In this document: positions 6,663 to 42,569 of the stretch, one piece after another
How positions within the stretch are numbered: position 1 is the stretch's first letter
Layout of the letters: each line of letters starts with the position of its first letter
Assembly: GCF_003952385.1 (NCBI RefSeq)
Contig: NZ_CP034444.1
Span: 6,957,001 to 7,021,000 of the forward strand
Reading direction: 5' to 3'
Length of the DNA: 64,000 nucleotides
DNA from: Mesorhizobium sp. M1D.F.Ca.ET.043.01.1.1
Lineage (GTDB): Bacteria > Pseudomonadota > Alphaproteobacteria > Rhizobiales > Rhizobiaceae
The notes under the pieces: generated by a model
Database searches by the model: none
What the model saw: only the letters and a program-made list of their open reading frames with translations
Told to the model about the DNA's origin: nothing
Position numbers and translations under genes: made by a program

Positions 6663-6674
6663 CGATTTCCCCTT

Positions 6675-7297: not shown

Positions 7298-7436
7298 CGG
7301 TCCGTTTTATAGAAGACCCCACATAGAAGCGCTTGATAGGCGCCAGCGGGTGCCAAGATGTAGACCGCCCATCCCCGTTCTGCAGAACGGTACAAGCTAA
7401 TGACAGAGCTGCTCGATTGGATTGTTAAGAGCCCGT

Positions 7437-7660: not shown

Positions 7661-7673
7661 GCCAAGCGGTGGC

Positions 7674-7883: not shown

Positions 7884-8170
7884 GGATGCCCACTCCCGCG
7901 TTTAGGTTTGTTTAGCCCATTTGGGCTACGACGAAGGTGCGCGATGGGTATTGCGTTCGCGCCAAAACACTCCTCGCTGCTTGCCGCATCAGGCTCGCTG
8001 GGCAATCCTTTGCGCCTGACGTAGATTTCGCTGCTGACTCGCGACATCGGCCGATATGGGACCTATTTCCGTCGTTGAGACTGATCATGCCAGGCCCTTG
8101 ACGGAAAAGAACTCGTTTTCGATCCAAAAGGGCAAGGGGAGGGCCTTCTCTATCTCCTAAGCCACATCTC

Positions 8171-20503: not shown

Positions 20504-21763
20504 ATGGCATTTCGATTTGTTCATACAGCCGACATCCATCTCGATTCGCCTTTGCGCTCGCTTGCGCTGCGCAATCCCGAGCTTGCCGAACTCGTCGGAG
20601 ATGCCAGCCGCCAGGCATTCACCGCGATAGTGGATTTGTGCCTTGCGGAGGATGTCGATGCGCTTGTGATCGCCGGCGACCTTTATGATGGCGACCAGAC
20701 CTCGATGAAGACGGCGCGCTTTCTGGCTTCCGAGTTGACGCGCCTCCATCAGGCCGGTGTCAGGGTCTACATGATCCGCGGCAACCACGACGCCATGTCG
20801 CGGATTTCGAAGCAACTCGTCTTGCCCGACACGGTGACCGTCTTTGCCGGCCGCTGCCAATCCGTGGTCCAGCCTGGCTCTGGAGTGGACGTTGCGTTCC
20901 ATGGGCTGAGCTTCGCCAGTCCCAAGGCGCCCGAAAGCCTGCTGCCCAAATATGCCGGCCCACAGGAGGGAACTGCGAACATCGGCATCATGCATACGAG
21001 CCTGGCCGGCTCCCCAGGTCATGACGTATATGCCCCTTGCAGCGTCGCCGACCTGCACGGGCACGGCTTTGACTATTGGGCGCTGGGCCATATCCACGTT
21101 CGTCAGGTCTATTCCGGTGCGAGCACGCTCGTGATGCCAGGAATCCCTCAGGGGAGGGACATCAATGAGGCGGGTGAGAAATCGGTCACGCTGGTCACCA
21201 TTCGCGACGATCGCTCCGTCGAGATCGAGGAGAGGCTCATTAGTTTCGTGCAGTTCGAGCGGGTGAGCGTCGATCTAACCGATGCGTCGGAATGGAGTGA
21301 GGCCGTCATTCGTATCCGAGCAGGATTGGAGCAATCCCGGGAGGTTACCAGATCGCGCTACCTTGTTGCTCGCGTTAGCTTGGTCGGCACAACCGCCCTT
21401 TCATGGTCGCTGATGCGCGACCGGGACCTGGCCGTCGCAGAAGCCGAACAGGCAGCAGAACAGGTGGGCGACACCTGGGTGGAGAAGCTGGAGCTTGATC
21501 TTTCGGCTCTTGCTGCCGGAGATTCGGGAACTGCCGCCGATCCTACTTTGGAACTCGCGCAGTCCATGCGCGCCAATGCGAACTCGGAAGCATTTCGATC
21601 CGAAGCGCGGGAATTCGTATTGAAGACGATCGCGGACCTGCCGCCCGATGCGCGCGGCTTCGCCGGCAAGGACGAAGCAGGCCTCGAACAGTTTCTCGAC
21701 GATGCGCTTGCCGGAAGCGTTGACCTGGTCACGGCCCGGCTCAAGGCAGGTGCGACGCGATGA
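20504..21763 (+). CDS. SbcD/YhaO-like metallophosphatase (DNA exonuclease family)
   Basis: 419 residues of the calcineurin-like phosphoesterase fold, as in SbcD/Mre11 and Bacillus YhaO. The metal-binding motifs are in order: FVHTADIHLDSPLR (D, H near residues 10-12), VIAGDLYDGD (about 53), MIRGNHDAM (about 89), GIMHTSL (about 165) and ALGHIHVRQV (about 190). A C-terminal capping domain follows. GGAG sits ten bases before the ATG. It overlaps the next gene by four bases (ATGA), so nuclease and ATPase form a complex encoded as an operon, probably acting on DNA ends. Confidence 0.9.
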   Translation: MAFRFVHTADIHLDSPLRSLALRNPELAELVGDASRQAFTAIVDLCLAEDVDALVIAGDLYDGDQTSMKTARFLASELTRLHQAGVRVYMIRGNHDAMSRISKQLVLPDTVTVFAGRCQSVVQPGSGVDVAFHGLSFASPKAPESLLPKYAGPQEGTANIGIMHTSLAGSPGHDVYAPCSVADLHGHGFDYWALGHIHVRQVYSGASTLVMPGIPQGRDINEAGEKSVTLVTIRDDRSVEIEERLISFVQFERVSVDLTDASEWSEAVIRIRAGLEQSREVTRSRYLVARVSLVGTTALSWSLMRDRDLAVAEAEQAAEQVGDTWVEKLELDLSALAAGDSGTAADPTLELAQSMRANANSEAFRSEAREFVLKTIADLPPDARGFAGKDEAGLEQFLDDALAGSVDLVTARLKAGATR

Positions 21764-24700
21764 GATTGCGGCGCCTTGACCTGACCCGCTACGGCAAGTT
21801 CACCGATCAGGCGATCGACTTTGGAGAGAAGCCGGTTGCAGGTCCGGATCTGCATATCGTTTTCGGCTTGAATGAGGCCGGGAAATCGACCGCGCTCTCT
21901 GCCTACCTGGATCTTCTCTTTGGCATCGAAGAGCGCAGCCGCTACAATTTCCTGCACGAATATAGCTCCATGCGCATCGGCGGACTGCTCGAATTCGAGG
22001 CGCAGACGCTTGCCGTTTCACGCACCAAGAGTCGCAGCAACTCACTCTACGACGCCGAAGGCCGGCCACTGAGCGAAATTGCCATTTCGCCGCACCTCGC
22101 TGGCTTGTCCCGCGACGCCTACAGCAGCATGTTCTCGCTGGATGACGAGACGCTGGAGGCAGGGGGCAAGGCGATCCTTGAATCGCGTGGCGATCTCGGC
22201 AAGCTCCTTTTCACCGCCAGTGCTGGGCTCGGCCATGCCAGCGATGTGTTGGTCGCCTTGGGAACGGAGGCAGATGGGCTTCACCGGAAACAGGCTCAGA
22301 CGACCGATATCGCGCTGCTGAAGAAACGGTTCGCGGAACTCAAGTCGCGCAAGGAGACGATCGACACGCTGGCCTCGACATTCGAGGCGCTCGAGGCGGA
22401 ACGGGCGGAAGCCCAGGAGAAGTATGACCGCAGCCTGACTGAACGCGCGGTGTTGTCGGCCCGGCTCGCCACGATCGACCGATATGTTCGCGCCGCTCCG
22501 CTCCTGGCCGAAATAAAACGCAAGGCAACCAGGCTGGCTGACCTGCCTGACCCCCCGTCTCCAAAGAGAACCTGGAGTGGCAGCGTCGCGGAATTGATCG
22601 ATCAGGACGCGCGCTTAAGAACGCGTCTCCAGGCGAATGCCGACGAGATCGATCGGGCAAAGGCAAAGATCGAAGTAATCGACGTCGACGGCACTGTGCT
22701 GGCGATCTCGGAGCAGGTGCGAGGACTTGCCGACCGGAAGGCGCGCTATTTGTCCGCGGGCATGGATCTGCCGACCCGCAAGATGGAAGTCCAACTGCTC
22801 GACCAGACGATAGCTAACTGTCTCGCCGCGCTTGGAAGGTCGGCCGAACAGGATCCGTCCCGGCTCATCCTGCCGGCCTTTGTGGTTGGCACGCTTCGCA
22901 ACATGGTCGAACAGCGCTCCGGCATCACGACGAGCCTGCGGATGGCCCGCGATGAGGCCGCTGCCGCGCTCGACGGGCTCAATGCGGCCCGAGGTCGCGT
23001 TGGCGAGGAGAGGGCGGTCCCCGAGCCCGCAAGAGCCCGGCTGATGGCAGCCGTGTCGGAAGCCAAGGCCAGCGGTCACAAACGCGAAATCGCAGAGGCG
23101 CGCGGGTTCGAGGAAGAGCGTCAAACAAGGCTGGCCGATGCGATGCGGCACCTTCGGCCGTGGTCGGGAGATGCAGAGGCACTTTCCAAAATGCCGGTCC
23201 CAGTGCCGACGCAGATGGCTGCCTGGAAGAAACTGGCCGCCGACCTTCAAAGGGACAGGGCAGTCTTTTCCGAGCGTCTGGCTGAGCATGAACAAAGCCG
23301 GATCTCAACGTCGGCTCGTCTGACTGCTGTCCGCGCCTCGGCCGACATCGCTGACGATGACACAGCCGCAGCCATTCGGCGTGAGAGGGAAGAGGCCTGG
23401 CGAAGTCACCGGGCGGACCTAAAGCCCGAAACCGCAGACGCCTTCGCCGTGGCACTGGCCAGGGACGATCAGGTCGGTGCTGCGCGATTGGCTCACGCCG
23501 GCGAGCTTGCGGACCTGCGCGTAATCAAGCAAAAGGCGGCCGAAACCGAATTGGCGAGTGAGCGCGTCGCTGCCCAGCTCTGCGAGCTGGAAAAACGCAC
23601 TGAAACGGCGTCGATTGAAATCAAGCAAATGGCCAGCACCCTGCTTAAGGATTGCCAAGCGCAGTCGCTCGACCTCTTGATCGGACTTTTGGAGGAGCGG
23701 CTGTCCGCGCGCGCTGACGCGCTTGGCGCCTGGGACGACATCCTGCTCGCACGCGCGAGAATTGAACGAACAACAGCTGAAGGAGAGCGGATCCATCTAG
23801 GATTGGCCTCGGCTCTTCGAAGCGTTGGAATTCAGCCGGAAGCCGGTGAGGCCCTGGAGGCGATGGTGGTCGCTGCTGACCGTTTTCTGGACAGGCAGGC
23901 GAAGGTCGACGCGGAACGCGCGGAAGCGCTAAGAAGCGTCGCCGCGAAGGAAGAGGAGCTGGCCGCCAGGCGGCTAGCCGTTGAAATTGCAGAGCGGCGG
24001 GATGTTGCATGGCAGGCCGACGTCAATGAAACGCTGAAGGGGACTTGGCTCGAAGACGGCATCGCCGGAACCGGGCTCGGCAGCGTGCTCGATCAGCTGT
24101 CGGACCTGTCAAAGGCGCTGCAGGATCGTGAGGCCATGCGTACCCGCATAGGCAAAATGGAGGCTGACAGGACTGGCTTTGCTGACGAGGTGGCCCGGCT
24201 TAGTGCGCAGGCCGGGGATCCCACAGGTGACGAGGCGCCGGAACAGGCGAGCGCCAGGCTGACCGAGCGTCTGGAGCAAGCGCGGCGCGCGCGTGAGGCG
24301 AGGGCGAATCTCCTCCTCGATGTTCAAAAGTTGCGAGACGTTCAGGAGGCATTGAGCGCCGAGATCGCGGCACACCAGACGACCAAGCAGGAGGTGCTCG
24401 ACGCTTTCGGGGTGAAAACTCTGCCCGAGGTCGCAGAGCGTGATGAACAACTTCGCGAGCGAGACAGCCTGCAGCGCGCAGTGGCCGAGCTTGAAGAACG
24501 AGTGACGAGCGAGGTCGCCCTCGAGGACTTCGCCCAGGCGCGCTCATTGCTGGAGAGCGTCGATCTCGATGGGCTGGCAATTGAAAAGGCCGAAATCGAG
24601 CGGCACCTCGCCGACCTCGATGAAGCCATACAACAGCAACTCGTCCGGCGTACCCGAGCGACCGACAAGCTCGACGCGATTGGCGGCGACAGCCAAGTTG

Positions 24701-25230
24701 CCCGGATCGATGCGGAGCGCCGCACCGTTCTTCTCGAAATCGAGGAGAAGGCTGCCCGCTATATCGAGTTGAAGCTTGGCGTCATGTCGGCAGCAAGCGC
24801 GCTCCGGGTCTATCGCGAACGTCACCGCTCTGGAATGATGAGCCAGGCCTCGGACGCCTTCGCACTGATAACGCGCGGCCAGTACACAGGCTTGACGACC
24901 CAGCCGGCAAAAGGCGGTGACGTCCTCATCGCCACGCAGCGGGATGGCCAATCGAAGGTCGCAGACGCTTTGTCGAAAGGCGCGCGTTTTCAGCTCTACT
25001 TGGCTCTACGCCTCGCGGGATATTACGAGTTTGCCAAGCTCAGGCCCTCTGTTCCGTTCATCGCCGACGACATCATGGAGACCTTCGACCATCTCCGGTC
25101 GGAGGAAGTTTTCCGCCTGTTTGGCGAGATGGCCAGCGTAGGCCAGGTGATCTATCTCACCCATCACCAGCACCTATGCGAGATTGCGAAGTCGGTCATT
25201 CCCGACGTTATGATCCACGAGCTCGGGTGA
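21760..25230 (+). CDS. SbcC/YhaN-like AAA ATPase
   Basis: 1156 residues. Walker A FGLNEAGKST is at about residues 35-44, followed by FGIEERSRYNFLHEYSSMRI, typical of YhaN proteins. Long coiled-coil arms fill about residues 170-1010. The C-terminal ATPase lobe has the signature LSKGARFQLYLALRLAGYYE and Walker B VPFIADDIMETFDHLR, then VIYLTHHQHLCEIAKS. No Cys-x-x-Cys zinc hook was noticed in the centre. It is the partner of the phosphoesterase upstream, forming an Mre11/Rad50-like unit for processing DNA ends. Such pairs occur both as housekeeping repair genes and in defence islands; the setting here favours an accessory role (inference). Confidence 0.9.
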   Translation: MRLRRLDLTRYGKFTDQAIDFGEKPVAGPDLHIVFGLNEAGKSTALSAYLDLLFGIEERSRYNFLHEYSSMRIGGLLEFEAQTLAVSRTKSRSNSLYDAEGRPLSEIAISPHLAGLSRDAYSSMFSLDDETLEAGGKAILESRGDLGKLLFTASAGLGHASDVLVALGTEADGLHRKQAQTTDIALLKKRFAELKSRKETIDTLASTFEALEAERAEAQEKYDRSLTERAVLSARLATIDRYVRAAPLLAEIKRKATRLADLPDPPSPKRTWSGSVAELIDQDARLRTRLQANADEIDRAKAKIEVIDVDGTVLAISEQVRGLADRKARYLSAGMDLPTRKMEVQLLDQTIANCLAALGRSAEQDPSRLILPAFVVGTLRNMVEQRSGITTSLRMARDEAAAALDGLNAARGRVGEERAVPEPARARLMAAVSEAKASGHKREIAEARGFEEERQTRLADAMRHLRPWSGDAEALSKMPVPVPTQMAAWKKLAADLQRDRAVFSERLAEHEQSRISTSARLTAVRASADIADDDTAAAIRREREEAWRSHRADLKPETADAFAVALARDDQVGAARLAHAGELADLRVIKQKAAETELASERVAAQLCELEKRTETASIEIKQMASTLLKDCQAQSLDLLIGLLEERLSARADALGAWDDILLARARIERTTAEGERIHLGLASALRSVGIQPEAGEALEAMVVAADRFLDRQAKVDAERAEALRSVAAKEEELAARRLAVEIAERRDVAWQADVNETLKGTWLEDGIAGTGLGSVLDQLSDLSKALQDREAMRTRIGKMEADRTGFADEVARLSAQAGDPTGDEAPEQASARLTERLEQARRAREARANLLLDVQKLRDVQEALSAEIAAHQTTKQEVLDAFGVKTLPEVAERDEQLRERDSLQRAVAELEERVTSEVALEDFAQARSLLESVDLDGLAIEKAEIERHLADLDEAIQQQLVRRTRATDKLDAIGGDSQVARIDAERRTVLLEIEEKAARYIELKLGVMSAASALRVYRERHRSGMMSQASDAFALITRGQYTGLTTQPAKGGDVLIATQRDGQSKVADALSKGARFQLYLALRLAGYYEFAKLRPSVPFIADDIMETFDHLRSEEVFRLFGEMASVGQVIYLTHHQHLCEIAKSVIPDVMIHELG

Positions 25231-25640: not shown

Positions 25641-28600
25641 TTGAATAGGTTCAACAGAAAGTGGCAGTTTGGCCTGATTCACCCTAGGGGTGAGACGGCG
25701 CGGAGGGGAATATTGGCCGCAGGGACAGTTGCAGGTGCGGTGTCGGCCTATGGCGCATCGCTGAAACCGAAGCTTTCGAATCCGGCAATCGGCGGGCAGC
25801 CCGAGGAGCAGCTTCGCGGGCCTCTTGAGGTGCTGGTCAAGTCGCTTGCGGAGGTCGAAGGTTTCGCAGCCGGCGCTGTCCACCTGGTCGGCGAGACCCG
25901 CCTTGCCGACATCAAGACCCGGCCAGATTTCGCGGTCACGGCCAACAAGGTGCTGGTCGGATTCATCGAACTAAAGGCACCGGGCAAGGGTGCCGATCCG
26001 CGCCGCTTCACCGATCCGCACGACAAAGAACAATGGGGCAAACTGAAATCGCTGCCCAATCTCCTCTATACCGATGGCCAGTCCTTCAGCCTGTGGCAGG
26101 ACGGTGAGATCGTCGGCAAGGTCGTCGCGCTCGAAGGCAATATCGAAAGCGATGGGGCGAAGCTCGCCGCCCCCGACGGGCTGCTGCCTCTGATCGTCAA
26201 CTTCCTGACCTGGAAACCCATACCGCCCGCCAACGCCAAGCAGCTCGCGCAGATTTCGGCGCGACTGTGCCGCCTTTTGCGCGATGAGGTGATTGAACAA
26301 CTGGAGCGCAAGAGCCAGGGACTGACGGATCTCGCCAGAGATTGGCGCAGGCTGCTGTTTCCGGAAGCCAACGACTACCGTTTCGCTGATGGCTATGCGC
26401 AGGCCGTGACGTTCGGCCTGCTCGTCGCTCGCGCCATCGACATTTCGCTCTCCGGCGGCATCCACCAGGCAGCCTATCAGTTGCGCGGCTCCAATTCGCT
26501 GATCGGCACCGCCCTCGGCCTTCTTACTGACGACCCCGAAAACCAGAAGGCGTTGGAGACGTCGCTCGCCACGCTGACCCGCGTGCTGAACGAGGTGAAC
26601 TGGCACACCATCAGCAAGGACAAGCCGGAAGCCTGGCTCTATTTCTACGAGGATTTTCTCGAAGTCTACGACAACGATCTCAGGAAGCTGACCGGCTCCT
26701 ACTACACGCCGCCGGAGGTGGTGGCAGCGATGACGCGGTTGGTGGACGAAACCTTGCGCGGGCCGCTGTTCTCGCGCCCGGCGGGCCTGGCATCGACCGA
26801 CGTGACGCTTGCCGATCCGGCGATGGGCACAGGCACCTTCCTGCTTGGGGTCATACGCAAGATTGCCGCCACGGTCGAGGCCGACCAGGGCAAGGGCGCG
26901 GTGCGCGGCGCGGTCGAGGCGGCGATGAGTCGACTGATCGGGTTCGAGCTCCAGTTCGGCCCCTTCGCCGTCGCTCAGCTTCGCCTGATCGCCGAGTTGC
27001 AGGCTCTGACGAAGCCGGATGCCAAGACCCCGCCGAAACTACCCGACTTGCAGCTTTTCATCACCGACACGCTCGGCAACCCATATATCGAGCAGGACAC
27101 ACTGGTGCAGAGTGGCCCTATCGCGCAATCGCGGCGGGAAGCAAACCGGATCAAGCAGCAGCGCGACATCACCGTCGTGCTCGGCAATCCGCCCTACAAG
27201 AATCAGGCAAGTGGCATGGGCGCCTGGGTGGAGCAAGGCGCGACCGGTCGCCCCGCGCCGATGGATTGGTGGGCGCCGCCGCCGGAATGGAAGCTTGGCG
27301 CCTACACCCATCACTTGAAGAACCTCTATGTCTATTTCTGGCGCTGGGCAACGTGGAAGGTGTTCGGCACCGGCAACCGTGCAGCGACCGGAACCCCCGA
27401 CCGGGACGAGGAGGGCATCATCTGCTTCATCACCGTCGCCGGCTTCCTTGGTGGGGATGGATTTCAGAAGATGCGCGACGATCTCCGGCGCACCTGTTCC
27501 GACATATGGGTGATCGACTGCTCGCCGGACGGACACCAGCCGGAAGTCCGGACTCGCATCTTCCAAGGCGTGCAGCAGCCCGTCTGCATCGTGTTGGCGG
27601 CGAAGCCGCTCAGCAAGGATCGGAACACGCCGGCCAGGGTGAGATTCCGCGCGCTACCCAAGGGGCCGCGCGGGGACAAGTTCACCGCGCTGGAGACCCT
27701 GACGCTCGACGCGTCAGACTGGCAGGATTGTCCTGCCGACTGGCGCGCGCCGTTCTTTCCGGCAGCGAGTGACGAGTGGGTAACGTTCCCGCCGTTAGAT
27801 AGGTTTTTCGACTGGTCGAGTCCCGGCATAAAGACACATCGGACGTGGGTTATCGCTCCCGACCCCGAGTCTTTGTCTCGGCGTTGGGACGCATTACGCC
27901 GCGAGACAAACATCGAGAAGAAGGAACGGCTGTTTCACCCCGACCGGGATCGATACCTGGACAAGGTTGTGTCTGTCGGATTGGGCGATCACGGAGTGAG
28001 AGCCAGTGCAGTTATCAAAGACGAAGAATCGATCGTTTCCCCCTGTCGATACGGATTTCGATCCTTCGATCGCCAGTGGATCGTGCCAGATCATCGCCTT
28101 TTGAGCATGGCTCGGCCGACATTGTGGAACTGCTACTCCGCGCGCGAAGTCTACCTGACTGCCTTGGAAGCATCGTCTCCAAAATCCGGACCAGCGATCA
28201 CCTTCACGGGGCTGATTCCAGATCACGATCACTACAAGGGCTCATTCGGCGGCCGGGTATATCCGCTGTGGCGAGATGCGGCGGCGAAGGTTCCGAACGT
28301 CCCGACGCAACTGGCTGGCGTGCTAGCCGACGTTTACGGCCATGCGGTCTCGGCCGAGGATGTCTTGGCCTATCTGGCGGCGGTTATGGCGCATCCGGCC
28401 TTTACCGCGCGGTTCCAGAACGACCTCGTACAGCCTGGCTTGCGCGTGCCGTTGACTGCAGACCCGGCACTGTTTTCGGAAGCCGTCGCGCTCGGCCGTG
28501 AAGTCATCTGGCTTCACACCTACGGCGAGCGTTTCGCCGATCCGGCAGCCGGACGGCCGAAGGCGCCGCCGCGCATGGCCGAGGGTGCCCGGCCGTTCAT

Positions 28601-29012
28601 TCCGGAGGGTGGCAGCATTCCCGGTCCGCCGGAGCCGCTGCCCGACACCATGGAATACGATCCGGCCAAGCGTCGGCTGCATGTCGGCAACGGGTTCGTT
28701 GACAACGTCTCGCCGGAAATGTGGGCCTATGAAGTCTCAGGCAAACAGGTGGTATGGCACTGGTTCAGCTACCGCCGGCTTGACCGCACGCGGCCACAGA
28801 TCGGCGACAAGCGGCCGCCATCGCCACTCGACAGGATACAGCCCGACCATTGGCTGGCCGAATACACCAGCGACCTGATCGACCTCCTCAATGTGCTGGG
28901 GCGGGTAATCGCGCTAGAGCCGACGCAGGCCGACCTGCTGGCAAGCATCCTGAAGGCCGAGCTCATCAAGGCCGATCACCTGAAGGTGGTGTTGGGTGCC
29001 AGAAATAACTGA
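25641..29012 (+). CDS. single-chain restriction-modification enzyme (type IIG / ISP-like)
   Basis: 1123 residues combining DNA cleavage, adenine methylation and target recognition. The N-terminal PD-(D/E)XK-like site has PD at 95-96 and ELK at 110-112 (TRPDFAV...GFIELKAPGKG). A helical linker ends in GSYYTPPEVVAAM (about 352-364). The N6-adenine methylase has motif I DPAMGTGTFLL at 392-402 and motif IV NPPYKN at 516-521. The C-terminal half resembles the type ISP specificity domain (VYGHAVSAEDVLAYLAAVMA, AYEVSGKQVVWHWFSYRRLD). No DEAD-box helicase motifs were seen, unlike true ISP enzymes. The start is a TTG; a TTG at about 25711 is another option. Two small genes follow on the same strand. 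Confidence 0.85.
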   Translation: MNRFNRKWQFGLIHPRGETARRGILAAGTVAGAVSAYGASLKPKLSNPAIGGQPEEQLRGPLEVLVKSLAEVEGFAAGAVHLVGETRLADIKTRPDFAVTANKVLVGFIELKAPGKGADPRRFTDPHDKEQWGKLKSLPNLLYTDGQSFSLWQDGEIVGKVVALEGNIESDGAKLAAPDGLLPLIVNFLTWKPIPPANAKQLAQISARLCRLLRDEVIEQLERKSQGLTDLARDWRRLLFPEANDYRFADGYAQAVTFGLLVARAIDISLSGGIHQAAYQLRGSNSLIGTALGLLTDDPENQKALETSLATLTRVLNEVNWHTISKDKPEAWLYFYEDFLEVYDNDLRKLTGSYYTPPEVVAAMTRLVDETLRGPLFSRPAGLASTDVTLADPAMGTGTFLLGVIRKIAATVEADQGKGAVRGAVEAAMSRLIGFELQFGPFAVAQLRLIAELQALTKPDAKTPPKLPDLQLFITDTLGNPYIEQDTLVQSGPIAQSRREANRIKQQRDITVVLGNPPYKNQASGMGAWVEQGATGRPAPMDWWAPPPEWKLGAYTHHLKNLYVYFWRWATWKVFGTGNRAATGTPDRDEEGIICFITVAGFLGGDGFQKMRDDLRRTCSDIWVIDCSPDGHQPEVRTRIFQGVQQPVCIVLAAKPLSKDRNTPARVRFRALPKGPRGDKFTALETLTLDASDWQDCPADWRAPFFPAASDEWVTFPPLDRFFDWSSPGIKTHRTWVIAPDPESLSRRWDALRRETNIEKKERLFHPDRDRYLDKVVSVGLGDHGVRASAVIKDEESIVSPCRYGFRSFDRQWIVPDHRLLSMARPTLWNCYSAREVYLTALEASSPKSGPAITFTGLIPDHDHYKGSFGGRVYPLWRDAAAKVPNVPTQLAGVLADVYGHAVSAEDVLAYLAAVMAHPAFTARFQNDLVQPGLRVPLTADPALFSEAVALGREVIWLHTYGERFADPAAGRPKAPPRMAEGARPFIPEGGSIPGPPEPLPDTMEYDPAKRRLHVGNGFVDNVSPEMWAYEVSGKQVVWHWFSYRRLDRTRPQIGDKRPPSPLDRIQPDHWLAEYTSDLIDLLNVLGRVIALEPTQADLLASILKAELIKADHLKVVLGARNN

Positions 29013-33279: not shown

Positions 33280-33641
33280 CGGCAACAAAGCGTTGGCAGT
33301 TCGGGAGTTCGGCTGGGTAGGAGCGAAAAGAAGGCAGGCTGCTCGCCCAAGACGTAGCTCAACGTCTGATATCACGGCGGCGACCGGAAGGAGTCATCCT
33401 GCCTTCGACCCCGTTGTGGCTGTCTGGAACGCGCCTTCATTTCGGCCATTCGAGGTGCCATCGGAAGCCGCCCAATGCGGACGTAGGATTTGGCCTCCGC
33501 TTAGGCTGGCATGAGGGATAGTATCGACGGTACGCTCGTCTATGAGTTGCGGTGGAGGCTGCGAACTGGCATCGCTTGACTTGCACATGGGCAGGCGGCC
33601 AGAAGCAGGCTGACTTGTGTTAGGGTTTGGATCGAAACGAA
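33280..33641. other. gene-free stretch before the GHKL ATPase gene
   Basis: No supportable gene or RNA is seen on either strand. Only short serine/arginine-rich frames occur. It presumably carries the promoter of the following gene; no clear -35/-10 pair stood out. Confidence 0.4.
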
Positions 33642-35780
33642 ATGACGCTCGACATCAGGGGAAGCATCAAGAACACCAAGCTCAGCTTGAACCAATACGT
33701 GGTCTTTGAAGAACTTATCGCCAATGCGATCGATGCCTATCTCATTCGGCGAGCGAGCGACCAATCCGCGCCGGACATGAATATTGCAATCGAAGTCGAT
33801 TTCTTGCGTGCAGACTTGCTCGACGATCGCGAACTAATGAACGTTTCGTGCGGCGACAACGGATGCGGTCTCGGCGACGACCAACTCAAGGCCTTCCTGA
33901 CAAAGGATACGTCCTACAAGGACGATCTCTCCATCTCTGGCATCGGAAAGTGCAAGGGCGCGGGACGCATCCAGTTCTTCCATCATTTCGCAGCGATGAG
34001 GATCACCAGTACCTACCGGGACGGTGACTCTCTCCTGAAGCGCGAGTTTCGGTATTCCGAACCGCAGAAGCAAATCGAGGCTGATGATTTTACCACGGCG
34101 CCGGTCGCTGAAGCCGACATCGGGACCGTCATCCGGCTTGAGCAATTCAAAGAGGCGGTTCGCCCGCGCGTATCCCACGGTGAGGCCCTCAGCACCCTCT
34201 TCTCGGCGCCGGGGCTGAAAAAGCAGATGCTCGTCGCTTTCCTGCAGCGGCTCGTCGGACTCGGTGAACAGCTCGGCAACTTCGAGATCCGGTTCACCAC
34301 ACGGCACTGGAAGGACGACCAAGCGAAGATCGAAGCGCTACGGCTCGCCGACCTGCCGGCAGTCACTGCCGAGCGTGCTGTTGATGTCGAAGAGCGTGAT
34401 CCTGCATCAGGGGAGCGTCTCGGCACGCGGCAAACATTCAACCTCTCCCACTATCAGCTCGATGCCGAACAGTATGATCTTCCGCGCAACGCCATCGCCT
34501 TCTGTGCCAAGTCCACGCCTGTGAAGGACATCACGGGTCACTACCTCAGGACGCGTACCGAGCAAAACAACCCGGTCGGCGGTTTCCATCATATCGTGCT
34601 GATCGAGGCTGACTATCTGGACGCACGCGTCAACGAGCAGCGCGACGACTTCGACAATATTCCCGACGAGATTCCGAGCGGCGATATGTTTTCGGCGGAA
34701 AAATTGTCCTACGCTGACATTCATGAGGCGCTCGACCCGGTCATCGACGAGATGGTCACTCCTGCCGACTGGAAGAAAGAGGCGGTGCTCAAGGAGGCCA
34801 CCCACCAGTTCGGTATCAGCGAAGCGATGCTACAGGATACCAAGACCAGGATCGTGTACGGCGAATCCGCCCAGTCGGTCGCTGAACGCGTGTTGAGCAA
34901 ATACCAGAAGGCCATCATCGACGAGACCGCCGCGATCTTCAGCCTCAAGGAGGAGATCATGGCAGCCGAGCCGGACTCCGACGAGTTCCGCAAGAAAATC
35001 CATGAGCTTTCCTGGAAATATACGTCATCGCTCAAGAACTTCGACATGGCGAACCTGTCGCAGCTAATCGTGCGTCGCGCCGCGATCGTCGATATCCTCG
35101 ATCTCGCCTGCGGCCAGCGGCTTGCCATGCAGGTGGCCGCCGACGGCGCCAGACGCAAGGATGAGCAGATCATCCACAGCATCTTTTTCCCGATGCGCAA
35201 GGACAGCACCGAAACGACTGATCACGATATCTGGTTGCTGAGCGAAGAGTACCAATATTATGACTATATCGCGTCGGATTTGCCGCTCGCGAACATCAGA
35301 TGGAACGATGACACCAATGTATTTGAGAGTGACATCGACGAGGCACTTCGAAAAATTCTTGCGAAACGCACGAGCGACAACGGGGGCAAGCGTCCCGACA
35401 TCGCGGTGTTCAGTAAGGAGGGCTCGGCGATCATCGTCGAATTCAAGGCGCCTGGTGTTTCCACTGACGAGCATATCGGCGATCTCTCCGAATATGCTCA
35501 GCTGCTTGCGGCGAAATCCGGCGGCAAACTCAGAAAATTCTATGGCTATCTGATCGGCGATAGCGTCAATACGCTGCGTCTGAGCGGGAACTGGACGCCG
35601 TTCCCGACCGGCAAGGGCTGGTTCCAATCAAGCGAACTGAAGGATCCCGAGACGCGGCAATCGCTGGGTGAGACCTATTTCGAGATACTCCATTTCAGTG
35701 ATGTGATCGACCGCGCCAAAAAACGCATTGGCGTCTACCAGGACAAACTCAAACTGGACTTCCGTCGCGACAACATTTGA
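33642..35780 (+). CDS. GHKL ATPase fused to a PD-(D/E)XK-like domain
   Basis: About 712 residues (numbered below from the alternative TTG start at 33627, 717 residues). The N-terminal Hsp90/MutL/MORC-type ATP site has the N-box VVFEELIANAIDAY (E29, N33), the G1 box CGDNGCGL (D77-G81) and the G2 box SGIGKCKGAG (104-113). A middle transducer-like region and a charged helical part follow (about 370-500). The C-terminal domain has KRPDIAVFSKEGSAIIVEFK with D591, E605 and K607 in PD-(D/E)XK spacing, and SEYAQLLAAKSGGKLRKFYG after it. It would couple ATP-driven dimer closing to DNA cutting (inference). I know of no named family with exactly this layout, although GHKL-plus-nuclease proteins occur in defence islands. 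The start is uncertain. Confidence 0.75.
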   Translation: MTLDIRGSIKNTKLSLNQYVVFEELIANAIDAYLIRRASDQSAPDMNIAIEVDFLRADLLDDRELMNVSCGDNGCGLGDDQLKAFLTKDTSYKDDLSISGIGKCKGAGRIQFFHHFAAMRITSTYRDGDSLLKREFRYSEPQKQIEADDFTTAPVAEADIGTVIRLEQFKEAVRPRVSHGEALSTLFSAPGLKKQMLVAFLQRLVGLGEQLGNFEIRFTTRHWKDDQAKIEALRLADLPAVTAERAVDVEERDPASGERLGTRQTFNLSHYQLDAEQYDLPRNAIAFCAKSTPVKDITGHYLRTRTEQNNPVGGFHHIVLIEADYLDARVNEQRDDFDNIPDEIPSGDMFSAEKLSYADIHEALDPVIDEMVTPADWKKEAVLKEATHQFGISEAMLQDTKTRIVYGESAQSVAERVLSKYQKAIIDETAAIFSLKEEIMAAEPDSDEFRKKIHELSWKYTSSLKNFDMANLSQLIVRRAAIVDILDLACGQRLAMQVAADGARRKDEQIIHSIFFPMRKDSTETTDHDIWLLSEEYQYYDYIASDLPLANIRWNDDTNVFESDIDEALRKILAKRTSDNGGKRPDIAVFSKEGSAIIVEFKAPGVSTDEHIGDLSEYAQLLAAKSGGKLRKFYGYLIGDSVNTLRLSGNWTPFPTGKGWFQSSELKDPETRQSLGETYFEILHFSDVIDRAKKRIGVYQDKLKLDFRRDNI

Positions 35781-35861
35781 ACTGCGACCGCGCCCTTGGG
35801 TCCGCCTAGCGCGTTTGAGTTCCGGGAGCGGACTGGCAGGACTCGGCCCCTCGGGCACCAG

Positions 35862-36629
35862 CTAAACGTCGACGATAACGGGAGGTCCTAAGCCGCCAAC
35901 CTGTAGTCGTTTCAGTGATGGGCTGCTGAGATCGACTTCAATTTCTGATGTGAAGGGAACTGCGTAAGTTTCGGCGTCGAATCCCCTGAAAGCGACCCCG
36001 GCAGCCTTCATTGCCTTAAATACCTTGCAAACGGCGGAAACGAAGATGGGCATCAAGTCCAAATAGATTTGATCCTTCGGGTATCGGTCACGTAACCCGC
36101 GGTCGCGGATTGCCGGAAGTTTGAGCTGCATATCGATGCCTTCCATCCTCCGCACAGCCTTGTCGCTGCCGACGATGGTGTCGAGGTAGGGCGAGGCGCA
36201 TGAAGGGTCAAGCCGAGCGTCCAGATCGTCCAGCCTGACGTAATGGGACATCTGGATTGGAATGCCATGAAGCGTGGGGTGGCTCGCAAGAAGGAAGGAA
36301 GCCCCGCACCAGCGATCCAGATCGGTATCGAGGTACAGACGCCGATTCAAACTGTGGAACAGGGGATGATTACGATGATGGATTGCATTGCGTACCGCTA
36401 AGAGCACGGTGGTATCGCCGTTACCGAAATATGGGAACAGGCCCTTCGAGACATCATAGAGCGTGTGAAAGGCCTCAAGCTTCATTTCGAAAGTGCGATC
36501 CAGGTTGTCAATCGCCTCCTCGGGATCAACTTTGAATAGCTCACCAAAGCGCATGTGCGTCTCGACATACATTCGCATGATGTTCGCTAAGCTGCCGATC
36601 GCTCTTTCTATGATCTGATTGCTGCTCAA
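35862..36629 (-). CDS. hypothetical protein, 255 residues
   Basis: Not recognised. A helical N-terminal half (SLANIMRMYVETHMRFGELF, EAFHTLYDVSKGLFPYFGNG) contains AVRNAIHHRNHPLFHS, an R-N-x-x-x-H-like motif (RNAIHH) that recalls HEPN/RNase-type proteins. The C-terminal half has VSAVCKVFKAMKAAGVAF and ends in short strands. The start is TTG; the next methionine is at residue 18. It is convergent with the GHKL gene (81-bp gap) and lies 0.17 kb from the IS element. The HEPN resemblance is weak and is inference only. Confidence 0.6.
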   Translation of the reverse strand: MSSNQIIERAIGSLANIMRMYVETHMRFGELFKVDPEEAIDNLDRTFEMKLEAFHTLYDVSKGLFPYFGNGDTTVLLAVRNAIHHRNHPLFHSLNRRLYLDTDLDRWCGASFLLASHPTLHGIPIQMSHYVRLDDLDARLDPSCASPYLDTIVGSDKAVRRMEGIDMQLKLPAIRDRGLRDRYPKDQIYLDLMPIFVSAVCKVFKAMKAAGVAFRGFDAETYAVPFTSEIEVDLSSPSLKRLQVGGLGPPVIVDV

Positions 36630-36800
36630 TCGTGTCGTTCCGATATGGTGGCCATCGTGCAGTCGCCACGACCAAGCCGTTGTCCCAACGACGCGTGCCG
36701 GGGAGCGCTTCTTGTAGACCGACGGTCTTGATTGACAAGATCAATGGCAGCCTTCCGACCTTTGAAGTCCAGCAGCCGCCAGTCCCGCTTCTGATGCGGT

Positions 36801-36857: not shown

Positions 36858-37883
36858 ATGATGGGCAACGTTACGACGATTGGTCTGGATATTGCGAAGT
36901 CAGTGTTTCAAGTTCACGGCGTGGATGCGGCGAGTGAGGTTGTCTTTCGCAAGAAGCTGACGCGTGGGCGCGTGCTGGCATTCTTCGAGAGCCTGCCACG
37001 TTGCCTGGTCGGAATCGAAGCCTGCAGCTCGTCGCACTATTGGGCAAGAGAGCTAACTTCACGTGGCCATGATGTGCGGCTGCTGCCGGCACAGTATGTG
37101 AAGCCTTATCTGAAGCGGCAGAAGAATGATGCTGCAGACGCAGAGGCGATCTGCGAGGCGGTGACACGGCCAACCATGCGCTTCGTGCCGGTGAAGACTC
37201 CCCAGCAGCAAAGTGTGATGATGCTTCACCGGGTCCTGTTGATGCTCAACCGCCAGCGGACACAGATATCGAACGCGTTGCGAGCGCACCTATCCGAGTT
37301 CGGGATCGTGGCGCCGATCGGGCGGAATGGGGTCGAACAATTGCTCGTGGTCGTCAACGACGAGAACGACGCCAGGATACCTGCCGACGCGCGGCTATGC
37401 CTGCGCATGCTCGAGGCGCAGCTCAGGGTCGTGAAGGCGCAGATCCTGGAGAATGATCGAAGGGTGCGGGCGAGTGCGCGAGAGACCGAGCTTGGTCGCA
37501 GGTTGATGGAGATTCCCGGCGTAGGCCCGCTACTGGCGAGTGCGTTCGTCGCGACCGTCGCCGATGTTCACGCATTCAAGTCGGGGCGCTGCCTATCGGC
37601 CTGGATCGGACTCGTGCCGAAGCAGAACTCTAGCGGGGGAAAAGAGAAGCTTGGCAGCATCTCAAAGGCCGGCAATCGCTACCTGCGTCAATTACTCGTT
37701 GTCGGCGCAATGGCGGTCATCCGCTATGCCGAACGGAACGGGACGAGGAGGCCATGGCTTGTGCAGTTGATGGCGCGGCGAACAGCCAAGGTTGCGGCGG
37801 TTGCGTTGGCCAATAAGACCGCCCGGATGGTTTGGGCATTGATGACGAACGGCGAGCGCTACAGAGAGCCGGTCATCGCATAA
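36858..37883 (+). CDS. IS110-family (IS1111 group) transposase
   Basis: 341 residues. The N-terminal RuvC-like DEDD domain has TIGLDIAKSVFQVHGVD (first D), CLVGIEACSSSHYWAREL (E) and KNDAADAEAICEAV (DxxD). A coiled middle region and the C-terminal transposase_20 domain follow, with LMEIPGVGPLLASAFVATV and SAWIGLVPKQNSSGGKEKLG, including the catalytic serine expected in SSGG. It has full length and no frameshift, so it is likely active. ATG at 36858 or 36861, with GGAGGAG just upstream. IS110 transposases use a bridge RNA from the element's non-coding end to choose donor and target. Confidence 0.93.
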   Translation: MMGNVTTIGLDIAKSVFQVHGVDAASEVVFRKKLTRGRVLAFFESLPRCLVGIEACSSSHYWARELTSRGHDVRLLPAQYVKPYLKRQKNDAADAEAICEAVTRPTMRFVPVKTPQQQSVMMLHRVLLMLNRQRTQISNALRAHLSEFGIVAPIGRNGVEQLLVVVNDENDARIPADARLCLRMLEAQLRVVKAQILENDRRVRASARETELGRRLMEIPGVGPLLASAFVATVADVHAFKSGRCLSAWIGLVPKQNSSGGKEKLGSISKAGNRYLRQLLVVGAMAVIRYAERNGTRRPWLVQLMARRTAKVAAVALANKTARMVWALMTNGERYREPVIA

Positions 37884-38144: not shown

Positions 38145-38380
38145 ATACACGGCCCCGACGCTGCCTTGGCGCGCGCCGAGGCCAGCGCCGTAAGCCCTTC
38201 GACCCGAATTGAATCACATCCCGGAATCCGGTGGCAAGCCGATCGCCGCAGTCCACAGCGGAAAGGCTATTTTCATGACGTCGATGTTGAGAAGGGTGAT
38301 GCCGGTGGCCTACCTTTGCGTAAGCACACTGAGTCCGCGGACGTTGACGCCATGGTCACGCCGAAACTATGGGGTCGCCG

Positions 38381-39505
38381 ATGGAAGGGCAGGAACTGAT
38401 CGAGATCGCGGATCGGCTGAAGGTCCTGGCAGATGGGCTTGAGGTCGACGAACTCACCCAAGGATTGCGACGCATCGGCGCGGTGTGCGAGCAGGTCGGG
38501 CAGGCCTGGAGTGGGTCCAACCTCGGCTACCATTCCGTCGTGTACTATGCGGGTTTGGCACGGCCTCCCGCCGACGCACATTTCAGCATCGAGTCTGGGA
38601 TAGCAGACGCGTGGCCGTTGGATGGCTCGGTCGGGACCTGGGAAGAGTATCGCTATGACGACGTGGTGGCGGAGATTAAACGCCGTGGTGGCAATCCCGA
38701 TCTGAAAAAGATGGAGGTCGAATCTCGTGCGGTGGCGCAAGCGGTCGATGAAGCGAAGCAAACGATCGCCTCTTTGCTCTCCGAGGCGTTGCGCGACCGT
38801 CCAGACAGTTTCCTCGAGGATGTGAAATCAAAGATCGCAGACGAGCGCGTCCTTTCAGAGCAGGATGGCGCGCGGGCGATGCTGCCCCGGGGCCAAATCA
38901 TCTCGCGTGACATGCGCGCGATGACGCAGGGCATGCGCTTAGCGCCACACCAAGCCGTCACGCTTAAGATGGCGTTACTCGGGGCACCGGGCATCGTCGC
39001 GCGTAAGATCTCCGGTCTTGCACGGCAGGCCGGTTCCCATCTTCTCCGGGTGGAGGGGCGGAAGCGAAAATCCGCGCTGGTGGGCACCAATGTGTTCATT
39101 GGCCACGGCCGCAGTCTCCTTTGGCGCGCGCTCAAAGACTTCGTCCAGGACCGGCTGCATTTGCCGGCCGACGAGTTCAATCGCGTCCCCGTGGCAGGCG
39201 TTACAAATATCGCCCGGTTGTCCGAGATGCTCGATTCCGCGGCGATCGCTTTCATCATCCTCACCGCCGAGGATGAAATGAAGGATGGCAAGCTACAGGC
39301 ACGCATGAATGTCATTCACGAGGTCGGCCTGTTTCAAGGTCGACTCGGTTTCACCCGGGCGCTTGTGATGCTTGAGGAAGGATGCGAAGAGTTTTCTAAC
39401 ATCCAGGGCCTTGGCCAGTTGCGGTTTCCCGTAGGCAATATCACAGCTTCGTTTGAGGACGTTCGACGTCTCCTTGAGCGCGAAGGTCTGATCGATACCC
39501 ACTAG
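38381..39505 (+). CDS. TIR-like (CAP12/PCTIR-type) nucleotide-binding protein
   Basis: 374 residues. The last 150 residues form a TIR-like domain: NVFIGHGRSLLWRALKDFVQ, VAGVTNIARLSEMLDSAAIA, FIILTAEDEMKDG, NVIHEVGLFQGRLGFTRALV (with the glutamate typical of NAD-cleaving TIR domains in IHEVGLFQG) and a final LRFPVGNI. This is the PF10137-type domain of CBASS/Pycsar-like effectors, which degrade NAD+ when triggered. The N-terminal 220 residues are helical and not recognised; they contain MEGQELIEIADRLKVLADGL and a YHSVVYYAGL segment. No cyclase gene is adjacent, so the sensor is unknown. GGGG six bases before 38381 supports this start; 38369 is possible. Confidence 0.8.
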   Translation: MEGQELIEIADRLKVLADGLEVDELTQGLRRIGAVCEQVGQAWSGSNLGYHSVVYYAGLARPPADAHFSIESGIADAWPLDGSVGTWEEYRYDDVVAEIKRRGGNPDLKKMEVESRAVAQAVDEAKQTIASLLSEALRDRPDSFLEDVKSKIADERVLSEQDGARAMLPRGQIISRDMRAMTQGMRLAPHQAVTLKMALLGAPGIVARKISGLARQAGSHLLRVEGRKRKSALVGTNVFIGHGRSLLWRALKDFVQDRLHLPADEFNRVPVAGVTNIARLSEMLDSAAIAFIILTAEDEMKDGKLQARMNVIHEVGLFQGRLGFTRALVMLEEGCEEFSNIQGLGQLRFPVGNITASFEDVRRLLEREGLIDTH

Positions 39506-39759: not shown

Positions 39760-41151
39760 TTAATTTGATTCAAATATCGCCGTTACTTGGATTGGATTCA
39801 GGATGCCTTCCGACTCGATCACCTGCCTCAATCCGATGCCTTCGACAAGCGCCCGGTGGGCTAGCTTGGCGGCTTTGCTGTATCCTAAGACTGGGTTCAG
39901 AGCGGCGGCTAAGATCAATGAATTGTCGTGCAGCGATCTGCAGCGCTCGGCGTCGGCTTCAATGCCGTCAATGCAACGTATTCGTAAGAGGTCCATGCCT
40001 TTTGCAAGCAGGCGTATGGATTGCAGAATGTTGAGAACGATTACAGGTTCCATTGCGTTCAATTGCAGCTGCCCCGCACTGGCAGCAAGCGTGACGGTCA
40101 GGTCATTTCCAATCACCTGGAACCCGATCTGATTCATCATCTCCGGGATAACCGGATTGACTTTTCCCGGCATGATGGATGAGCCGGCCTGCAGTGCAGG
40201 GAGACGTATTTCGCCGATTCCCGCGCGCGGCCCACTAGAGAGCAGGCGAAGGTCGTTGCACACCTTTGACAGTTTTACGGAGATGCGCTTCAATGCGCCG
40301 GAGACAGTTACGAAGGCACCGGTGTCCGACGTAGCCTCGACCAGATTGCGCGCGGGACGAACGGCTACACCTGAGATGTTTGATAAATGCGCACAGGCGA
40401 TACCTGAAAACCCTTTCGGGGCATTTACGCCTGTGCCTATCGCGGTGCCGCCCAGATTGACTTCTGTCATCAGCTGAATAGAGCTCTCAAACAGAAGAAT
40501 GTCATTCTCGATAGTTGCGGCGAAGGCATCAAATTCCTGACCAAGATACATCGGCACCGCGTCCTGGAGTTGGGTGCGTCCTACCTTGACAATGCCGGCG
40601 AACTCCAATCCTTTTTGCCGGAATGCCGCAGCAAGCTCGCGCTGGGAATTAAGCAACGTCTCGCAACAGCGTAGCAGGGTTAGCCGAATCGCGGTCGGAT
40701 ATACATCGTTGGTTGACTGGGAAAGGTTGACGTGGTCGTTTGGATTGATCGTGTCGTAGTCGCCCGCTCGGTTGCCGATATCCAACAGTGACAAGTTGGC
40801 GATCACTTCATTAAAATTCATGTTAGTCGACGTGCCTGCGCCGCCTTGCATCATGTCGACTGGAAAATGTGGCTTTAGAACATCCCCGGCAATAATTCGG
40901 TCGCAAGCCCGGGCGATAGCCGCTCCGATGCCGGGCTGGATCAGACCAAGCTCCAAATTCGCCTCAACAGCAGCCTTCTTGACCATTGCCATGGCCGCTA
41001 TGAACTCCGGGAAGTCATGCAGGCGGATGCCCGAAACGTCGAAATTCTCGGCCGCTCGGAGTGTGTGAATTCCGAAGAGAGCATCAGAAGGCAGGTGCCT
41101 TTCGCCAACCAGGTCGCTCTCAACGCGCGTGTCCGCTTCCACAGTCACCAT
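39760..41151 (-). CDS. aspA: aspartate ammonia-lyase (fumarase/aspartase superfamily)
   Basis: 463 residues. It removes ammonia from aspartate to give fumarate, or is a close relative. The N-terminus is ESDLVGERHLPSDALFGIHT, the middle has MMQGGAGTSTNMNFNEVIAN and NDHVNLSQSTNDVYPTAIRL, and the superfamily signature GSSIMPGKVNP is at about residue 325, with the mobile serine loop. Q-T-x-L-QDAVP-type residues (GRTQLQDAVPMYLGQE) are present. GIHTLRAAENF favours aspartase over fumarase. It is the last gene of a four-gene minus-strand set and starts eight bases after the aldehyde dehydrogenase stop, so it should dispose of the aspartate formed by that enzyme. Confidence 0.88.
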   Translation of the reverse strand: MVTVEADTRVESDLVGERHLPSDALFGIHTLRAAENFDVSGIRLHDFPEFIAAMAMVKKAAVEANLELGLIQPGIGAAIARACDRIIAGDVLKPHFPVDMMQGGAGTSTNMNFNEVIANLSLLDIGNRAGDYDTINPNDHVNLSQSTNDVYPTAIRLTLLRCCETLLNSQRELAAAFRQKGLEFAGIVKVGRTQLQDAVPMYLGQEFDAFAATIENDILLFESSIQLMTEVNLGGTAIGTGVNAPKGFSGIACAHLSNISGVAVRPARNLVEATSDTGAFVTVSGALKRISVKLSKVCNDLRLLSSGPRAGIGEIRLPALQAGSSIMPGKVNPVIPEMMNQIGFQVIGNDLTVTLAASAGQLQLNAMEPVIVLNILQSIRLLAKGMDLLRIRCIDGIEADAERCRSLHDNSLILAAALNPVLGYSKAAKLAHRALVEGIGLRQVIESEGILNPIQVTAIFESN

Positions 41152-41159
41152 TTGCTGTT

Positions 41160-42569
41160 TTATCCGCGGTTGATACAAACAACTTTGGGCTGGGTCATTT
41201 CCTCATAGGCGAAGCGCACGCCTTCCCTGCCTATGCTGCCGTATTTAGAGCCTCCGAACGGCATGGCATCGAAGCGGTAATCGGAGGAGTCGTTGATCAT
41301 CACCCCGCCAGCCTCGATCCTGTTTGCCGCCTCAAGCGCGACAGACAGGTTGCTGGTGAAAATGCCGGCATGCAGACTGTATTCCGGCTGATTGGCCATC
41401 TCGATGGCTTCGTCGAGGGTCCTGAAAGGAGCAAGCATGACCACCGGCGCGAACACTTCCTCATGCCATAGCCGGCAGCTCGTCGGAGTGCCTTCGAGAA
41501 CGGTGGGGTGGTAGAGGGAGCCTTCACGCTGGTGGCCGCAAAGCAGTTTGGCGCCGGCGTTGATAGCGTCATTGACCGCTGCTTCGGTGCGTTCGGCGAC
41601 CTCCTGCGATATCATCGGACCGACATCGGTGTCCTCGTGGAAAGGATCGCCTGCCTTGAGCCTTTTGGTTGCGCCGACAAAGGCATCGCGGAAGCGTTCA
41701 TAAAGTTCGGACTGCACCAGGACACGTTGAGCGCCGATGCAATTTTGCCCGGCAGCCCAGAAGGCGCCGGATACGCAGCCTTCGACCGCCTTGTCGAAGG
41801 CGCAATCGTTCATCACGACGACCGGCGCATTGCCGCCCAGTTCCATCGCGAGTTTCTTCAGTCCAGCTTTCCGGGTAATGGCTTCCCCGGTGGCGAAGCC
41901 GCCGGTGAAGGAGACCATGCGGACGTCTCGTGCAGCAACCAGGGCTGTAACGAGTTCTCTGTCGCCGTGAACAACGGTAATGACCTCCCGCGGCAAGCCC
42001 GCCTCCAAAAGCGCGGCGACAAGATTAATCGCGGAAAACGGTGTCAGATTTGACGGTTTGAGCAGCACGGCATTACCGCCGGCGATGGCAGGACCGAGTT
42101 TATGAGCGACAAGGTTCAGGGGGTCGTTGTACGGGGTAATGGCAGCGATGATGCCAAGCGGCTCACGCGTGAACCAGCCCTGACGCTGTTCTGATCCTGC
42201 ATAGGCGTCGAAGGGCACGATCTCGCCGGCGTTGCGTTTCGCCTCTTCGGCGGAAAGCTTCAGCGTGTTGACGCAACGAAGCACTTCCTTGCGGGCCTGA
42301 TTGATCGTCTTGCCGGATTCGCGGACGATGGTCTTAACGAATGTATCACGACGACTCTCGACAATTTGCGCGGCGGACTCGAGGATACTGGCACGCCCAT
42401 GCCTTGGCAGGTTGCGGGAAATCTCGGCCCCGCGACGAGCCCCCGCCACAAGTTCACCGATCTCGCACGCATCTGTTGCATCGACCGTTCCAACAAGCGA
42501 TCCGTCATAGGGGCTATTGACGGTGATCGTCGCCAAGCTGGTCGTGACGTGAAGTTTGGCAGCGGTCAT
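41160..42569 (-). CDS. NAD(P)-dependent aldehyde dehydrogenase
   Basis: 469 residues, full length for the ALDH family. The cofactor segment is [20 protein letters not shown] and [11 protein letters not shown], the glycine motif is [13 protein letters not shown], the catalytic glutamate lies in [14 protein letters not shown] (about 252) and the catalytic cysteine in [14 protein letters not shown] (about 286). The first 37 residues of the longer frame are not protein-like, so ATG at 42569 is the start. Between an aminotransferase and an aspartase, its likely substrate is a semialdehyde such as aspartate semialdehyde (inference); succinate or malonate semialdehyde cannot be ruled out. Confidence 0.88.

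Follow-up and report, generated by a model that had tools for sequence, protein, structure and literature searches.

What is the function of a protein that joins a GHKL ATPase to a putative restriction-type nuclease, and does it act alone? The question is raised by a gene at 33642..35780 (+) in a stretch of 64,000 nucleotides from Mesorhizobium sp. M1D.F.Ca.ET.043.01.1.1 (contig NZ_CP034444.1; the whole stretch is called the window below). A sequence-only reading of this DNA had proposed that the gene, together with a convergent neighbour, forms an undescribed defence system. We conclude that the protein is probably an effector of the paraMORC3/GHKL-Shedu kind, encoded by a single stand-alone gene and directed against phages (or mobile DNA). 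This kind is already known: it was predicted in 2008, and in 2025 one relative proved to be active. The present family lies outside the PADLOC models used.

Domain structure and conserved residues

The open reading frame (ORF) at 33627-35780 (+) opens at an in-frame TTG, but homologous proteins begin at the position of the ATG at 33642, from which the protein has 712 residues. We number residues from this ATG, so that E24, N28, D586, E600 and K602 are the E29, N33, D591, E605 and K607 that the sequence-only reading had counted from the TTG. The GHKL ATPase domain covers approximately residues 1-175 (33642..34166, the end being estimated) and contains E24/N28, the motifs D72-N-G-C-G76 and G100-I-G-K-C-K-G-A-G-R109, and T162. 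It is followed by a middle region of about residues 176-489 (34167..35108), which would comprise a transducer, or S5-like, part and a linker, and by a putative nuclease domain of the PD-(D/E)XK restriction type at about residues 490-712 (35109..35780), with E508, D586 and E600-x-K602.

We found 648 homologues at E ≤ 1e-3 among 7993 candidates scored, and those listed, 120 in number, have 67-100% identity across 81-100% of the query length. A scan of genomes gave 73 distinct loci, some of them fragments, with 41-97% identity in the best segment; 60 of these have an ORF of at least 640 residues, and the remainder lumps together fragments, broken copies and contig edges. In an alignment of 30 rows (the window protein and 29 relatives, six of them only 20-24% identical), E24, N28, D72, G74, G76, G106, G108, R109, E508, H512, D586, E600 and K602 are invariant, and T162 is kept in 90% or more of the rows. 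The 60 long loci and the window's own copy make up 61 family rows, all of which have the nuclease residues E508, D586, E600 and K602, while D72 is found in 60 and both E24 and N28 in 59 (a gap and an X account for the other two). The six distant relatives also possess E24, N28, D72, E508, D586, E600 and K602, and are gapped at G100 and G102 of the third ATP motif. R334 in the middle region is invariant within the close family (61/61) and present in five of the six distant rows. The union of a GHKL ATP site with a C-terminal D...E-x-K layout in one protein, as claimed by the sequence-only reading, is therefore borne out, its residues being conserved far beyond chance.

Searches against domain models and structures agree with this division. 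With Pfam, the window's protein alone matched HSDR_N-type nucleases weakly (E 0.012 and 0.06, both under cut-off), and relatives gave stronger signals: HATPase_c in L042 (E 9.4e-4, under cut-off), HSDR_N in L031 (E 1.6e-5, its 25.3 bits just passing the cut-off of 25.1) and weaker VRR_NUC matches in L031 and L048 (E near 3e-4 to 5e-4). At E ≤ 10, a profile search of the PDB returned 14 chains, which without exception are GHKL proteins aligned within residues 14-94; the matches are weak but agreeing (TRAP1, E 0.028; topoisomerase VI-B, 0.094; a histidine kinase, 0.33; HtpG, 0.38), and those to TRAP1, topoisomerase VI-B and HtpG span about residues 14-89. The C-terminal domain is thus probably of restriction type, judging from these signatures and from E-D-ExK, and the possibility raised by the sequence-only reading itself, of a C-terminal domain unlike restriction enzymes, is at the level of sequence not what the HSDR_N match in L031 points to. 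The N-terminal nuclease of HsdR is the best Pfam resemblance of this domain, the GHKL ATPase taking the place of the helicase.

Relationship to paraMORC3 and GHKL-Shedu proteins

This layout is already in print. According to the sections used here of the paper by Iyer, Abhiman and Aravind (2008, PMC2292703), the GHKL and S5 domains of paraMORC3 proteins are followed at the C-terminus by a domain of restriction fold that carries E-D-ExK, while the S5 domain of MORC proper has the motif GhXhhpXXRhl; a subset of paraMORC3, mainly from proteobacteria and Bacteroidetes, stands alone, and paraMORCs were predicted to work with restriction-modification (R-M) systems, with roles outside R-M allowed for stand-alone paraMORC3. 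More recently, sections of Adams et al. (2025, PMC12137116) describe VcSduA of Vibrio cholerae, a GHKL protein with a DUF4263 domain which by itself protects against phages; the mutations E27A or K557A, in the ATP or the nuclease site, abolished protection, and proteins of this layout had formerly been annotated as paraMORC3. The word undescribed in the sequence-only reading has accordingly to be dropped.

Like paraMORC3, the window family has an N-terminal GHKL domain with intact ATP motifs, a middle region and a C-terminal restriction-type E-D-ExK domain; its distribution in proteobacteria is patchy and it is laterally mobile. Some relatives adjoin R-M genes and others stand without a conserved neighbour, as PMC2292703 says of a subset in the sections at hand. 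The middle region may correspond to S5; the profile alignment given below runs co-linearly through it. The likeness is one of layout and motifs. With VcSduA (GHKL-Shedu, type I-D) the family shares the GHKL N-terminus, the PD-(D/E)XK C-terminus and the single-gene form, and E27 and K557 of VcSduA would match E24 and K602 in role, judged by layout. Unlike VcSduA, it leaves the SduA_C model unmatched, and when its profile is aligned to a set of which one member bears SduA_C, identity is only 16%.

That set consists of L090 and six plasmid relatives chosen from 25 matching plasmid records. L090 (674 residues) matches HATPase_c_3 (6.2e-15) and SduA_C (9.5e-5; 23 bits, under the cut-off of 27), and the SduA_C signal of the set is that of L090, the one member scanned for it. 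Using hhalign, we aligned the family with its distant relatives to this set co-linearly over 529 columns (probability 98.6, E 9e-16), and the close family alone still gave a probability of 95.9 (E 5.5e-9). Compared by domain, the N-terminal parts matched each other (96.6, E 6.8e-10), as did the C-terminal parts (95.6, E 1.3e-8); for crossed domains the probability was 0.1-0.2, and when columns were shuffled, 20 times for each of four comparisons, it reached at most 2.0. The L090 set aligned with 8 plain SduA-type proteins at a probability of 96.1. Membership of plain SduA (Shedu) is ruled out for the window's protein by the unmatched SduA_C model and by a direct hhalign probability of 7.5. Because its alignment to the L090 set is strong and that to plain SduA proteins weak, the protein is, on sequence comparison, a remote relative of GHKL-Shedu proteins outside the SduA_C definition. 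Of 289 genomes scanned from the class, nine contain SduA_C, and L090 is one of these matches. One genome carries two SduA_C proteins (L085 and L092, G000:C1:2297480-2298004 and 1999866-2000351; open frames of 427 and 355 residues), which are apparently plain Shedu genes.

The GHKL ATPases of L090 and L093-L098, for all their full-length co-linear homology, differ from the window family in context. A cytosine methylase adjoins six of these seven genes (five annotated, that of L090 by BLAST to those), L097 having a helicase and nucleases instead, whereas C5 methylases occur in the flanks of two of the 73 window-family loci and adjoin none.

Distribution, mobility and selection

Loci with a family label in the tree belong to Pseudomonadota, except for one Armatimonadota assembly. 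Among 297 genomes of the order, the GHKL-nuclease is present in five: the window's own genome, one with a 49% full-length copy, one with a broken fragment and two with distant relatives. It occurs in 25 of 72,556 plasmid records, four of them at 48% or more, and in none of 50,697 phage records at E 1e-5, which rules out phage-borne copies within that collection.

The extent of sequence shared between loci suggests how the gene travels. A 3.4-kb segment with the gene and its convergent neighbour (33431..36791) is 96% shared with another site in two Mesorhizobium genomes, CA14 and CA8 (L001 and L017), while L002, L018, L009 and the Sinorhizobium plasmid L079 share with the window the GHKL gene and at most 166 bases before it and 69 after it. 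L002 and L018 have about 4.6 kb in common, extending past the gene, and some plasmid-like and closely related loci also share more than the gene itself, which speaks against a pure one-gene cassette. Our own reading is that the gene travels mainly on its own, through islands that change, and that the pair in the window is a single case of hitch-hiking. The ratio of non-synonymous to synonymous substitution rates (dN/dS, NG86) is 0.065, 0.064 and 0.063 against L002, L018 and L009, respectively, rises to 0.18 in the comparison with L001, a near copy, and was not computable for the two most distant pairs, L003 and L006; purifying selection on the GHKL-nuclease is strong. Six Bradyrhizobium loci (L064, L067, L068, L070, L071 and L073) carry the gene only in partial or broken form, which suggests gene loss. 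The proteins of L012, a Caulobacterales assembly, and of L014, Caulobacter vibrioides OR37, are identical, and their neighbouring ORFs have the same coordinates.

Genomic neighbourhood of the family

No constant partner emerges from these neighbourhoods. Counted over 71 of the 73 loci and the window, the commonest neighbouring family is found in seven of 72 loci. For a survey of gene content, 16 of the 73 loci were dropped as near copies or fragments, and a rough gene picker gave 199 ORFs from the other 57; 176 of them were scanned with PADLOC (93 and 83), only the 83 also with Pfam, and the 23 unscanned ones were hand-chosen, including a copy of the convergent neighbour in L001, four L014 ORFs that are copies of those of L012, and mostly short ORFs. 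The results, which are the first 25 of 395, 494 and 97 families and are given by family and not by locus, include matches to the PADLOC models PtuA, AriA, AbiLi and type I R-M, several of the matches listed being to overlapping general AAA-ATPase models; the Pfam matches listed include Fic proteins, integrases and genes of housekeeping type, among them those for an aminotransferase and a K+ transporter. No recurrent housekeeping neighbour was found; the sequence-only reading had regarded a mainly housekeeping setting as evidence against its proposal. Among the eight plasmid records examined of the 25 are copies beside a SIR2/ATP-binding pair and DarT/macro-domain genes, or beside a UvrD-type helicase and a restriction endonuclease. 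One distant relative has CBASS-type genes about 1.6 kb away, and R-M genes lie beside or near distant relatives.

Genes of the window itself were also queried as partners (tblastn, 1e-8, with the SNase-like gene at 30692 left out). The GIY-YIG, DUF2971, type IIG, SbcD-like, SMC-like and TIR genes and the ORFs at 29083 and 29409 were each found in 0/73 loci and are ruled out as partners. Recurrence of the GIY-YIG and DUF2971 genes or of the convergent gene, which the sequence-only reading had proposed as a check, thus amounts to none, none and two of the 73 loci.

The convergent gene (35862..36629, -) encodes an orphan of 255 residues with an R80-N-A-I-H-H85 motif, which we judge to lie outside the system. 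It has 332 homologues; in 25 rows, R80, N81, A82 and H85 never vary and H84 hardly does. The window's orphan matched no Pfam, PADLOC or NCBIfam family, and its best PDB match had an E-value of 0.48; 25 relatives gave scattered weak Pfam matches only, the best at E 0.0014 in two of them. Its R80-N-x-x-x-H85 resembles the HEPN Rx4-6H pattern as given in the part of PMC3710099 used here. Nevertheless, hhalign comparison with the HEPN sets DUF4145 (11 rows) and HEPN_Apea (2 rows) gave probabilities below 1, and neither the Pfam HEPN models nor the PDB yielded a match.

A second kind of context is the type I R-M operon. In L031 and L038, hsdM, hsdS, the GHKL gene and hsdR follow in this order on one strand, and the start of the GHKL gene overlaps the stop of hsdS; L031 has another ORF between hsdM and hsdS, and L038 an extra ORF ahead of hsdR and an hsdM interrupted by a run of unread bases. 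The order in L058 is hsdM, hsdS, an unassigned ORF whose stop the GHKL start overlaps, the GHKL gene, two further genes and hsdR. These three loci belong to zeta- and gammaproteobacteria, and their hsdS genes match each other and the annotated hsdS of the Salinivibrio locus L075, a distant relative in which the GHKL gene follows hsdS. In L047, an ORF of 157 residues resembling the start of HsdR begins 10 bases past the GHKL gene, and L054 combines type I genes with a broken GHKL copy. Altogether, type I genes related to seven seeds occur in the flanks of five of the 73 loci (L031, L038, L058, L047 and L054), and C5-methylase or Vsr seeds in two, neither adjacent; more divergent R-M genes could be missed by these seed queries. 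In an alphaproteobacterial assembly, a C5-methylase-like and a Vsr-like stretch (L029:3716-5186) are separated from the GHKL gene by about 5 kb. In a tree of 67 rows, whose distant rows sit on long branches, the six R-M-adjacent rows need four changes, at least three of them forced by well-supported branches, and R-M adjacency may still go back to one gain followed by losses.

Proposed function and alternative explanations

We favour a stand-alone defence effector because of the domain order, the intact motifs, the homology to GHKL-SduA_C proteins, the island and plasmid contexts, the sporadic horizontal spread and the purifying selection, together with the mutational proof in the relative VcSduA reported in the part of PMC12137116 used here. 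In the mechanism we propose, ATP binding would dimerise the protein through its N-terminal GHKL domains, and the dimer would close like a clamp on its target, either DNA or a DNA structure made by a phage; dimer, closure, substrate and trigger are all conjectural. Closure would be signalled through the S5-like middle region, so that the two C-terminal E-D-ExK domains would be positioned to cut DNA, and ATP hydrolysis would reopen the clamp. The presumed need for both the ATP and the nuclease sites is taken from the E27A and K557A mutants of VcSduA (PMC12137116, in the same part). Clamp closing linked to DNA cutting, and a defence role, were already part of the sequence-only reading; the former survives as the likely mechanism and the latter as the probable role, without the novelty of the system.

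Several observations weigh against a stand-alone defence effector. A PDB search with the single sequence found nothing at E ≤ 1, no PADLOC model matched the window's protein or seven relatives up to E 0.1, and PF14082 (SduA_C/DUF4263) had no match up to E 0.1 in the window protein or nine relatives; the direct alignment of the nuclease domain to the 8 plain SduA-type proteins was weak (E 0.0047 at the probability given above). The PADLOC matches among neighbours are raw and without a background set, and no enrichment is claimed from them. In our judgement the conservation looks high for a defence gene, and it could point to another role. In the open-licence literature we found no test of this exact GHKL-nuclease family, and the parts used here of the DefensePredictor, gene-semantics and HEF_HK papers hold nothing matching its layout.

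The protein might instead be an R-M accessory subunit, a clamp-nuclease recruited by an R-M enzyme to cut or loop flagged DNA, with a type I partner in some lineages and here perhaps the type IIG enzyme encoded 4.6 kb upstream. The overlapping starts within the operons of L031, L038 and L058, the hsdS-GHKL order in Salinivibrio and the prediction that paraMORCs act with R-M (PMC2292703, in the sections cited) speak for it. Against this stand the rarity of seed-related type I genes (5/73 loci, subject to the divergent ones that could be missed), the scarcity of C5-methylase/Vsr genes (2/73, neither adjacent) and the absence of the window's type IIG gene from all 73 loci, and we regard it as unlikely. 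A part in DNA repair or plasmid maintenance, through MutL-like strand processing or removal of rival plasmids, would suit the MutL-like logic of GHKL plus nuclease, the strong purifying selection (dN/dS 0.063-0.065 against three relatives), the copies on plasmids, the ParB-type gene near the copy in L034, which belongs to four loci whose plasmid-like flanks are shared, and the non-R-M roles that Iyer and colleagues allow in the cited sections of PMC2292703. The gene is nevertheless sporadic and laterally spread, not core, and has defence-type neighbours, so that this role seems rather improbable.

Least credible is a two-gene system that pairs the GHKL-nuclease with the convergent orphan, which might for instance serve as an RNase. 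The same convergent pair does exist at a second site, on the segment shared with Mesorhizobium CA14 and CA8, but the two genes adjoin only in L001 and L017, that is, at one site in two related genomes; among the 297 genomes of the order, which seem to be one sample for both proteins (cut-offs of 1e-3 and 1e-10), each is present in five and both only in the window's own. Moreover, no shared transcript is expected from convergent genes, and ORF lists, compared by eye and unclustered, revealed no neighbour common to three orphan homologues. We reject the pair as a system on these grounds; the convergent ORF and its RNAIHH motif are as the sequence-only reading had described them, the pairing it had drawn from them is unsupported, and the orphan is probably a chance neighbour.

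Other features of the window

The defence-type setting noted by the sequence-only reading holds: the window encodes a type IIG R-M enzyme, a DUF2971/PDC-S31 protein, a PDC-S06 ATPase and a CAP12-type TIR protein. The ATPase (870 residues; 17236-19848, -) matches PADLOC candidate PDC-S06 at E 5e-197. It is followed by an overlapping pair for an SbcD-like nuclease and an AAA_27/SMC-like ATPase of 1156 residues (20504-25230, +) and by the type IIG (ISP-type) enzyme of 1123 residues (25641-29012, +). The GIY-YIG match is weak (E 0.0076, under cut-off). Downstream of an IS110-family transposase gene (36858-37883) lies the gene (38369-39505, +) for a protein of 378 residues that has a TIR domain of CAP12/Pycsar type and matches PDC-S35 of PADLOC. 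As a boundary marker the IS110 region was uninformative, with one full-length genome copy and five partial matches, and the lyase-like gene at 39760-41178, used as a query for an empty site, has paralogues in 61/61 genomes of the genus. Towards the start of the window, a RepC-type gene (3094-4314, -), a ParA/RepA-type gene (5451-6662, -) and a phage-type integrase gene (8171-9301, -) suggest that 3091-9301, on a contig of 7.1 Mb, is perhaps an integrated plasmid or island.

Significance

The family is large and widespread, and surveys resting on PADLOC and Pfam libraries would probably miss the window's protein because it matches none of the PADLOC models and reaches the cut-off of no Pfam model. 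Its layout predicts that a change in E24 or in K602 alone should abolish activity. A more far-reaching idea, which we hold to be quite unlikely, is that the same GHKL-nuclease acts alone in most hosts and as a fourth type I subunit (HsdM-HsdS-GHKL-HsdR) in some zeta- and gammaproteobacteria. If true, one portable effector could respond in some hosts to DNA that it senses itself and in others to what a restriction enzyme senses, and type I R-M would exist in a form to which an ATP-gated nuclease has been added. With the copies in type I operons one could ask whether different sensors can drive the same module.

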